Made by a program: the position numbers and the translations under genes
The notes under the pieces: generated by a model
What the model saw: the letters and a program-made list of their open reading frames with translations, nothing else
Told to the model about the DNA's origin: nothing
Database searches by the model: none
Shown here: in pieces, positions 11,709 through 18,457 of the stretch
Numbering within the stretch: position 1 is the stretch's first letter
Layout: every line of letters begins with the position of its first letter
Assembly: GCA_020845895.1 (NCBI GenBank)
Contig: JADLEX010000128.1
Location: 1 to 37,658, forward strand
Source of the DNA: Deltaproteobacteria bacterium
GTDB taxonomy: Bacteria > Lernaellota > Lernaellaia > JACKCT01
Direction of reading: 5' to 3'
DNA length: 37,658 nt

Positions 11709-12173
11709 CTATTCGACGTCGATGCGCGTGATCCGCTGGCGGCGTTGCTTCGCCGTGGCGGAGTCGTCGGACAGGGCGGCGAGTTCCGCCTGAAAGTATT
11801 TGATGAGCCCCTGAATCGCCTCGACCTTGGCGAGGTCGGCCTGCGAATCGGCTGACTTCACGACGCGCTTCGCCTCGCCGTCGAGGACGCCGATGAGCTG
11901 TTCGATCGCCACCCGCTTTGCCGCGACGAGTTGTTCCTCGGGCGCGGATTCGGGAACCAGCGTGATGAGAAAGTCGAGTGTCGCGACCATGATGCGCAGG
12001 ATGTGAAGCGGCAGGCCCAGCGCCTCGGTGCCGGTTTGTTCACCGAGACGCACGAAAACCGTCAGCGTTTCGCGCGCCGCGAGCAAAAATTCGCGCTCCG
12101 ACGTCTTGATATGCCCGCGCGCCTTGTCGAAGGCCGCAAGAAAATCCGTGAGACTTTGGATTTCGGCGGTCAC
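11709..12173 (-). CDS. Unknown small helical protein coupled to an ArsA-like ATPase
   Basis: A 154-residue protein without a recognised family. It is predicted to be almost entirely alpha-helical, with heptad-like leucines (FLLAARETLTVFVRL, LHILRIMVATLDFLITLV), no cysteine and no signal peptide. The segment at about 54-74 is the most hydrophobic and could be an amphipathic or membrane-associated helix. A basic stretch, AKQRRQRITRI, lies near the C-terminus. It starts at GTG 12173, which overlaps the TGA of the ArsA-like gene (GTGA), so the two are almost certainly translated together and may act together. A dedicated partner or adaptor of the ATPase is the best guess, but this is inference from gene order only. 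Confidence 0.75.
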   Translation of the reverse strand: MTAEIQSLTDFLAAFDKARGHIKTSEREFLLAARETLTVFVRLGEQTGTEALGLPLHILRIMVATLDFLITLVPESAPEEQLVAAKRVAIEQLIGVLDGEAKRVVKSADSQADLAKVEAIQGLIKYFQAELAALSDDSATAKQRRQRITRIDVE

Positions 12174-13360
12174 GCGTTTTTCTCGAAGGTGATGTGAAAG
12201 GCGGAGTTCTCGTATTTCGCGCGCGTCACGACATGGCCGATCAGCACGCGAGGCAAAATGATATGCCTCTGCAGATCGCCGACGCCGACAATCAGCTCAT
12301 CGTGTTTGGCCCAAAGCTGAATGTCTTTTCGCTCGACGCCGGGCAGATGCAGCGCCATTTGGTATCGCCCGTCCGCTCCATCGAGGGTGAACGGTTTGCC
12401 GCGCCACAACACCTCGTTGGGCGCATAGCCGTTGTAAGTCGCGGCCGCCATCTCCGCGAGCCGGTCGAGGCCGAGCATCTCCGTGGGATAGAGCGCCGTG
12501 GAGAGGATCGGCAGCGGCGCGAACGCCTGATGGATGCGCTCCACGTACTCCTTCTGCAACCGTATCCAGTCTTTGAAAAAGCCCTTTCCCGCGGACGCGG
12601 GCAGGATCCGGTTCGTCATCACCGCGTCGACGGGAAAGCCGAATAGCGACAGGTAGGTGTGCGCGCGCTGCGTCTCCTGAACGACGATCTTTTCGGGATT
12701 CGTGACCAGGCGGATCGACGCGCGGTCGGGATCGGTGAGCAGGTCACGCACTTTCATCACGCGCGCGTAGATGTTTTCGACGTTGGAGTAGACCTCCTTG
12801 TCGGGCATCGGCGCCTTGATGACGCGCTCGGCGATCGGTTTGATCGCCAGCGCGATGCGTTTTTCGATGTCGTAGAACTTCTCCATGTACCACTGGAGCA
12901 CGTCGGCGAGACCGAGGAGCTGAAGGGTCGATCCGGTCGGTGCGCAGTCGATGATCGCCACGTCGTATTCGCCGCTCTCCTCCAGGTCGAGCAGCTTGAT
13001 AAGCGCGAAAAGGTCCTCCATGCCGGGCACGACCGCCAGTTCCTCGGCCACCGGCTCCTGATAGCCGCGCGCGGCGAGGAACTGCGTGAGATACCGTTGA
13101 ATGCGCCCCCAGTGACGACGCAGTTCGACGTTGACGCTGACCTCCTGCGCGGTGAGGTTCGGCTCGATGGTCTTGGGTTCGCCGCCGATCGTCGTGTCGA
13201 GCACGTCGGCGAGCGAATGCGCCGCGTCGGTGGAGAGGACAATGGTGCGCAGCCCCCGCCGGGCGCACGCCACGGCCGTCGCGGCGGACAGGGTCGTCTT
13301 GCCGACTCCGCCCTTGCCGGTGAACAAAATGACGCGCATCGGCGTGGATGGGGTTGTCAT
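12170..13360 (-). CDS. ArsA/Get3-family ATPase with C-terminal HSP20-like domain
   Basis: A 396-residue SIMIBI-class ATPase related to the arsenite pump ATPase ArsA and the tail-anchored-protein targeting factor Get3. It has the deviant P-loop TGKGGVGKTT (residues 14-23, signature Lys16), switch I STDAAHSLADVLD and switch II DCAPTGSTLQLL. A helical insert with MEKFYDIEKRIAL may form the client- or partner-binding face. The Get3 zinc CxxC and ArsA metal cysteines are not evident, so arsenic transport is unlikely; no arsB or arsC is nearby. Residues from about 320 form an HSP20/alpha-crystallin-like beta domain (YQMALHLPGVERKDIQL, DELIVGVGDLQRHIILP), known fused to ArsA-type ATPases in other bacteria. 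ATG 13360 has no SD; an internal ATG at 13339 is an alternative. First gene of a minus-strand operon. Confidence 0.9.
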   Translation of the reverse strand: MTTPSTPMRVILFTGKGGVGKTTLSAATAVACARRGLRTIVLSTDAAHSLADVLDTTIGGEPKTIEPNLTAQEVSVNVELRRHWGRIQRYLTQFLAARGYQEPVAEELAVVPGMEDLFALIKLLDLEESGEYDVAIIDCAPTGSTLQLLGLADVLQWYMEKFYDIEKRIALAIKPIAERVIKAPMPDKEVYSNVENIYARVMKVRDLLTDPDRASIRLVTNPEKIVVQETQRAHTYLSLFGFPVDAVMTNRILPASAGKGFFKDWIRLQKEYVERIHQAFAPLPILSTALYPTEMLGLDRLAEMAAATYNGYAPNEVLWRGKPFTLDGADGRYQMALHLPGVERKDIQLWAKHDELIVGVGDLQRHIILPRVLIGHVVTRAKYENSAFHITFEKNA

Positions 13361-17403: not shown

Positions 17404-17524
17404 CTCGACACGAGCATTCGTCGGCGCGGGAGGCGACGGGTGATTCGGCGAGACGGGCGGGCGTTGCGCGTCGGGCGCGGCGATCATATTCTCCGCCGGT
17501 GACTACCCGAATTAGGAGGGTGTG

Positions 17525-18457
17525 ATGTCGAAGCGACCCGCTTTTGTGGTGTTGTGGATCCTGGTGGCGAGCGCGGGACTTCTTTTGGGCTGCGGCGACG
17601 AAAGCGATTTCGATGGGGACGGCGAGGATTGGGACTCGTGGGAGGAGGACCAGGCGATCGCGGCTTCATCCAGTCTTCGCGTTCTGAGCTGGAACCTGCG
17701 TCACGAAGGGTGGTCGGGCGAGACAAACTACGCGGCCGACGCCGCGCAGATATGGAACCAGTTCGGCGCGTCGGCGTCCTCGCCCAACGGGTGTGACCTC
17801 GTCTTCCTGCAGGAGGTCATGTATCCCGAGGCGGCCGAGGGCATCGCGGAGGAATTGGAAGCGCTCTCCGGCGTTACGTGGGTTGCCGAGGTGACGCCCG
17901 TGATCGGCCGGTCCACGTACAAGGAAGCCTATGCCGTGCTTTACCGCACCGACCGCGCGGACGTGGAGGATTGGTGGATCTGGAACGACGTGGGCGACAA
18001 GTTCGAGCGCGAGCCGATGATCGTGAAGGTCCGCGACGTGCGTAGCGGCGCGGACTACACGTTCATCAACTGGCACACGATTTTCGGATCGACCACGGAA
18101 CGCAAGGCGGAGGTCACGCAGATTTCCAAGGTCTTCGGTTCGGTGCAGGCCGCGGAATCCACGGATCAGGACGTGATTCTTCTCGGCGACCACAACGCGC
18201 CGGCCACGTCGAGCTGGTGGACGCCGTTCACGTCGTTGATCCCGACCGTCGGTTGGAAGATCAACGATCCGACGACGCTGAATTCCTCGGGCGCGTACGC
18301 CTCGGCCTACGACCATTTCTGGTTTCAGGCGTCCTATCTCACGGAGTTTTCCTCCGCCGGGCGCGACTACGTTGCGAACACGCAGAACTTTGTCACAAAC
18401 CTGTCCGACCACGTCCCGATCTGGATGAAACTCTACAGTACGGCGGATACGGACTGA
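17525..18457 (+). CDS. Lipoprotein of the endonuclease/exonuclease/phosphatase (DNase I-like) fold
   Basis: A 310-residue exported protein. Residues 1-23 are a lipoprotein signal with lipobox LLGC (lipidated Cys23), then an acidic linker (DESDFDGDGEDWDSWEEDQ). The EEP fold follows with its metal and catalytic motifs in order: LSWNLR (Asn), FLQEV (Glu), YAVLYR, INWHT (catalytic His), LLGDHNA (Asp/Asn) and the final SDHVPI (Asp-His). Such proteins cut DNA/RNA or remove phosphates from phospholipids (sphingomyelinase- and nocturnin-like relatives); the substrate cannot be told. Position +2 of the mature protein is Gly and +3 Asp, so outer-membrane sorting is plausible. ATG 17525 sits behind AGGAGGG (17514-17520); GTG 17522 is too close. 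It stands alone in its direction after the tRNA. Confidence 0.85.
   Translation: MSKRPAFVVLWILVASAGLLLGCGDESDFDGDGEDWDSWEEDQAIAASSSLRVLSWNLRHEGWSGETNYAADAAQIWNQFGASASSPNGCDLVFLQEVMYPEAAEGIAEELEALSGVTWVAEVTPVIGRSTYKEAYAVLYRTDRADVEDWWIWNDVGDKFEREPMIVKVRDVRSGADYTFINWHTIFGSTTERKAEVTQISKVFGSVQAAESTDQDVILLGDHNAPATSSWWTPFTSLIPTVGWKINDPTTLNSSGAYASAYDHFWFQASYLTEFSSAGRDYVANTQNFVTNLSDHVPIWMKLYSTADTD

Follow-up and report, generated by a model that had tools for sequence, protein, structure and literature searches.

A Get3-family ATPase with a C-terminal alpha-crystallin domain and its translationally coupled small helical protein look like a widespread two-part system

The window, by which we mean the whole 37,658-nucleotide stretch of DNA analysed here, belongs to a genome of 5.0 Mb that is 99.5% complete and whose closest relatives in public records (L105 and L106) carry the label FEN-1099 and are listed there as Deltaproteobacteria. 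On the reverse strand of the window, the stop codon of an ATPase gene overlaps the GTG start of a gene for a 154-residue protein by 4 nt (GTGA); the overlap of stop and GTG start had been described in the sequence-only reading of this DNA. The features of the two genes are collected in Table 1.

Table 1. Coordinates of the ATPase gene, of the small partner gene and of their main features in the window.
Feature	Position	Strand	Remarks
Get3/ArsA-family ATPase with C-terminal alpha-crystallin (HSP20) domain	12170..13360	-	396 aa; PF02374 and PF17886; ATG start at 13360, alternative start M8 at 13339, as used by relatives
Alpha-crystallin domain of the ATPase	12173..12409	-	about residues 318-396; the partner tail is proposed to dock here
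Small helical partner, long form, 154 aa	11709..12173	-	GTG start; GTGA overlap, translationally coupled
Approximate core helix of the partner, GHIKTSEREFLLAARE...	12030..12116	-	conserved H and E common to the short forms (alignments)
C-terminal tail of the partner, RITRIDVE	11712..11735	-	I/V-x-I/V motif, sHSP type

Pfam bears out that the first gene encodes an ArsA/Get3-like ATPase with an HSP20 tail: PF02374 matches with 296.7 bits (2.5e-88) and PF17886 (ArsA_HSP20) with 69 bits (2.5e-19; cut-off 22.5) over residues 330-392. The motifs said to be complete were indeed read intact, with a Walker A of the deviant type in the P-loop (GKGGVGKT) and the switch motifs STDAAHS and DCAPTG. Within NCBIfam, the protein passes the GET3/ArsA/TRC40 subfamily model TIGR00345 (272 bits, cut-off 135) and reaches 167 bits for NF050088, the NosAFP/Get3d equivalog, which lies below the cut-off of 325; judged by these scores, it is a relative of NosAFP/Get3d that stands outside that orthologue group. 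When compared with the PDB sequences, archaeal Get3 (3ug6 and 3zq6) scored best, and Get3d (3igf and 8egk) aligned across the ATPase domain as well as the HSP20 domain. An orthologous alpha-crystallin domain (alphaCD) was modelled by AlphaFold as a seven-stranded sandwich that is matched by Get3d and sHSPs, and AlphaFold models of this domain from relatives retrieved 8egk, 3igf and 8elf with Foldseek.

Given that the Pfam family bears the name ArsA_ATPase, we considered whether the enzyme could be the ATPase of an arsenite pump, with an unrelated gene downstream. ArsA consists of two tandem halves, whereas the window protein has a single ATPase domain with one PF02374 match in its 396 aa, and its score for TIGR04291 (bacterial ArsA) is 91 bits against a cut-off of 650. 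Its only cysteines are Cys 32 and Cys 139, and in an alignment to 1f48 neither falls at the position of an ArsA cysteine that we take to bind arsenite; moreover, CxxC occurs in none of 81 ATPases (that of the window and 80 relatives). No match to ArsB (PF02040) or ArsD (PF06953) was found in the whole genome, and the gene pair is conserved across phyla. Since CxxC, a cysteine at an ArsA position and ArsB/ArsD are all missing, an arsenite role is not supported; we reject the ArsA identity on the domain count, the cysteines, the TIGR04291 score, the absence of ArsB/ArsD and the conservation of the pair, and leave it a minute probability. The sequence-only reading, which had seen no evident metal or zinc cysteines, had named conserved arsenite-binding cysteines and arsB linkage as what would speak against it, and neither appeared. 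Its preference for a targeting or chaperone role over arsenite transport likewise fits the sequence kinship to Get3 and Get3d, which would make such a role the likelier one.

The 154-residue protein had been called all-helical, with a hydrophobic helix, and of no recognised family, and both statements have held. The window protein has no significant match in Pfam, NCBIfam or PDB, and the partner forms tested from other genomes, short and long, have none in Pfam or NCBIfam. The AlphaFold model of a 53-55%-identical orthologue is a confident helical bundle (helices with pLDDT >90), in which the hydrophobic stretch is predicted to form one of the bundle helices rather than an isolated membrane span.

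The pair is not restricted to the window. A scan of genome contigs with the small protein of the window as a single query returned nothing. The partner lies beside the ATPase in 7 of 7 genomes of the window's class, a whole-genome search for partner homologues found them in all six other genomes of the class and in one distant genome, and a profile search reached further phyla. When we read downstream of the alphaCD-Get3 ATPases at about 120 loci, small proteins, diverged from one another, turned up in most lineages other than cyanobacteria. Beyond the window's class, the pair occurs in Aminicenantes, Acidobacteriota, Dormibacterota, Methylomirabilota, Rokubacteria, Chloroflexota, Caldisericota, Bacillota (Brevibacillus, Paenibacillus and Dethiobacter) and Archaeoglobales, and the linked genes often overlap by 4 nt or lie close together. 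In Archaeoglobales, and thus outside bacteria, L122 and L135 carry an alphaCD-Get3 ATPase with a tail-bearing partner. The proposal of a coupled two-part system is supported by the 4-nt overlap and by this recurrence across phyla, a breadth that the sequence-only reading had not seen. Open frames of 543 and 545 aa in G001 and G005, which seemed to contain the partner fused, proved to be out-of-frame open reading and not fusions.

The partner comes in two sizes. Short forms measure 63-95 aa and belong to Aminicenantes, Acidobacteriota, Dormibacterota, Bacillota, Methylomirabilota, Chloroflexota, Caldisericota and Archaeoglobales, whereas the long forms, found in the window's class and several other lineages, have about 116-163 aa. 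Common to both are a helix core, H-x-x-x-A-x-x-E, and an ending of the type (K/R)(I/V)x(I/V)(E/K). The H and E of the core are invariant in 22 aligned short forms, and the H is invariant in 8 aligned long forms; it should be noted that the H motif is missing from a few ATPase-linked proteins.

In a tree of the 81 ATPases, many branches of which are weakly supported and a few long, the window groups with its class, which has the long form. Partner presence is clustered on this tree (10 changes, compared to a shuffled mean of 23), and the long form strongly so (4 changes versus 17 when shuffled). A linked partner is missing from a cyanobacterial clade, from part of Chloroflexota and from some genomes scattered over the tree. 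Among the loci examined, no partner was linked to the cyanobacterial and some of the Chloroflexota ATPases, indicating that the ATPase can work without one. At another locus lacking a linked partner (L094, genome G065), two alphaCD-Get3-like ATPase genes are found close to each other, the second being strongly diverged with a P-loop that looks altered; G206 is arranged similarly.

The sequence-only reading had mentioned neither the tail nor its fit to the HSP20 domain, and the occurrence of the tail in linked and unlinked copies deserves a closer examination. For this, we built tail-blind profiles by trimming nine residues from the end of every row, and searched all loci, counting a match as linked if an alphaCD-Get3 ATPase lay no more than 400 nt away. 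I/V-x-I/V/L ends 48 of the 50 linked matches and none of the 12 unlinked ones, a contrast that is not fully independent since the seed rows of the profiles were all linked and tail-bearing, and that counts related lineages, which are not independent either. The two linked exceptions are L083, cut by the contig end, and L131, which runs past a VERIPV stretch; the 12 unlinked matches include at least one chance match (L034, a primase) and several other weak ones. As a background, the tail pattern was seen in 50 of 521 long ORFs. Overall, the tail goes with the alphaCD ATPase.

The tail-less H-x-x-x-A-x-x-E proteins adjoin ABC1/UbiB-type kinases (L196, L198 and L199), a flavodoxin-like gene (L194 and L195), an IclR-like regulator (L203 and L204) or other genes; those of L194-L199, L203 and L204 are found in genomes without the alphaCD ATPase. 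They look like a broader small-protein family without a name, and the core helix like a broader module. The sequence-only reading had asked whether the small protein always sits beside an ArsA-HSP20 ATPase: every I-x-I-tailed copy found does so, while the tail-less relatives of the core helix occupy other loci, for the most part in genomes that have no ATPase of this kind.

Among ten genomes with an unlinked core protein, PF17886 matches were found in nine, with a frame of ATPase length in G189 only; the other PF17886 frames are shorter and mostly of sHSP size. As such sHSP-sized proteins would have grooves too, the tail might recruit separate sHSPs instead of the fused alphaCD, the partner then bridging the ATPase to a general sHSP pool. 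However, the core proteins of those same genomes are without the tail, which tracks the fused alphaCD ATPase and not free sHSPs, and we hold a link to the sHSP pool to be improbable.

Structure prediction gave mixed results on the docking of the tail. The ATPase and short partner of L110 were modelled as one chain, with stops read through (table 6), whereas for L105 the alphaCD and the long-form partner were joined directly, with the stop read as W (table 4). The L110 model has an overall pLDDT of 87.8 and a Get3 fold, with archaeal Get3 as the best PDB match and Get3d matched over a longer alignment. Its partner helix (pLDDT about 70) is followed by a disordered linker, and then by tail residues 461-466, which have a pLDDT of about 89 and are assigned as beta-strand. 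A strand needs a pairing partner, for which the alphaCD would be expected. The L105 model contains a confident helical bundle and an alphaCD that matches Get3d and sHSPs, and its tail is undocked with a pLDDT <50. Given that the tail is a confident strand in the short form and undocked in the long form, docking is something that we infer and do not read from the models.

In alpha-crystallin domains, beta4 and beta8 border the groove to which sHSP tails bind by their IXI motif (PMC3638394), and BAG3 binds HSP27 in trans via IPV motifs, mutation of which abolishes the binding (PMC8047445). For a co-translated partner with an IxI tail next to an ATPase with an alphaCD, the simplest reading is that of a docking adaptor. 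We therefore propose, with a probability of roughly 0.6, that the pair is a two-part ATP-dependent chaperone or targeting machine, in which the partner is a dedicated adaptor docked by its tail on the alphaCD. By homology, the Get3-fold ATPase would act as a dimer, its shape changing with ATP, and would hold hydrophobic clients. The partner would be anchored to the alphaCD by its C-terminal I-x-I/V tail, lying in the beta4/beta8 groove in trans like the tails of sHSPs and BAG3, and would present its helical part, an amphipathic helix in the short form and a bundle in the long one, by the client chamber or a membrane/lipid surface. Binding of a TA protein by Get3d even without its alphaCD (PMC10248533) counts against this proposal, as do the ATPases that have no linked partner and the undocked tail of the L105 model.

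The helix itself raises a further possibility. It is amphipathic and about 25-31 residues long, and the hydrophobic chamber of Get3d, an active ATPase, has room for a helix some 22 residues long (PMC10248533), so that the partner could be a built-in lid or pseudo-client whose helix sits in the Get3 client chamber and regulates the ATPase or client release, the tail serving as a tether only. We consider this rather unlikely, albeit far from negligible: the helix of L110 is only moderately confident, the long form is predicted to be a self-contained bundle, and tail-less relatives of the helix exist where there is no such ATPase. Within the adaptor reading, it is our speculation that the helical part is a membrane or lipid tether rather than a lid on the client chamber; the lipid-related genes nearby (PlsC-like and PhaR-like ones, and ABC1 kinases next to tail-less copies) point rather to a membrane or lipid surface, although their occurrence is scattered.

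The neighbourhood of the pair varies. The GT-C-like and ABC-F genes, placed in the same operon by the sequence-only reading, are real and also lie downstream of the pair in L105, a member of the same family; L065 has only the ABC-F gene there, and the other class members examined have neither, so their linkage is limited to the window's own family. An endonuclease/exonuclease/phosphatase-family gene lies at 17522-18457 of the window, and in L068, a relative from the class, the pair is immediately followed by another member of that family. A PlsC-like gene is found near the pair in L016, L026 and L031, and a gene resembling a regulator of PHB/PHA accumulation (PhaR-like, PF07879) adjoins the partner in L032. 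At L027/L209, a tail-less partner-like protein is followed, in L027, by a PHB/PHA-regulator-like gene and a different ArsA-like ATPase. As functional links, the GT-C, ABC-F, PlsC and PhaR neighbours were all discarded, none being conserved across the family.

Taken as a whole, the pair looks like a widespread, previously undescribed two-part chaperone or targeting system; in the literature, we found nothing on an operon pairing of ArsA-HSP20/Get3, nor on Rv3679 with Get3. Whether it forms a GET-like two-component system in many bacterial phyla and Archaeoglobales, with the IxI tail of the adaptor plugging into the ATPase-fused alphaCD, so that the adaptor would be the missing partner of alphaCD-Get3 and the reason for the alphaCD, is in our view an evenly balanced question.

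Several known systems share parts of this arrangement. Bacterial ArsA (TIGR04291) belongs to the same ATPase superfamily, but the window ATPase is not tandem, has no cysteines at the ArsA positions and comes without ArsB/ArsD. Archaeal Get3/TRC40 (3ug6, 3zq6) provides the best-scoring solved sequences, with common membership of TIGR00345, whereas the window ATPase has an extra alphaCD and a partner gene and lacks CxxC, which in canonical Get3/TRC40 forms a zinc site at the dimer interface. With the IXI motif of sHSPs and the IPV motif of BAG3 (PMC3638394, PMC8047445), the pair shares a short I/V-x-I/V ligand of an alphaCD, acting in trans for BAG3; here, in contrast, a dedicated partner from the same operon supplies the ligand and the alphaCD forms part of an ATPase, and it is docking in the groove that we infer.

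Another close system is Get3d (NosGet3d All4481 and AtGet3d; PMC10248533), which likewise combines a Get3 fold, a C-terminal alphaCD and the absence of CxxC. The window ATPase keeps the P-loop and switch motifs and falls short of NF050088 (167 versus 325), and it has a coupled small partner, unlike the cyanobacterial copies examined. Moreover, ATPases of its type occur in archaea and in lineages that are not known to be photosynthetic. Barlow et al. (2023) called the role of the alphaCD in Get3d unclear and expected new partners (PMC10248533). For Get3d-type alphaCD ATPases, the structure is known and the partner is not; a partner with an IxI tail makes the purpose of the alphaCD cheaply testable. 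If our proposal is correct, alphaCD-Get3 with its partner would extend beyond photosynthetic lineages and make up a chaperone or targeting system that is broadly spread among prokaryotes.
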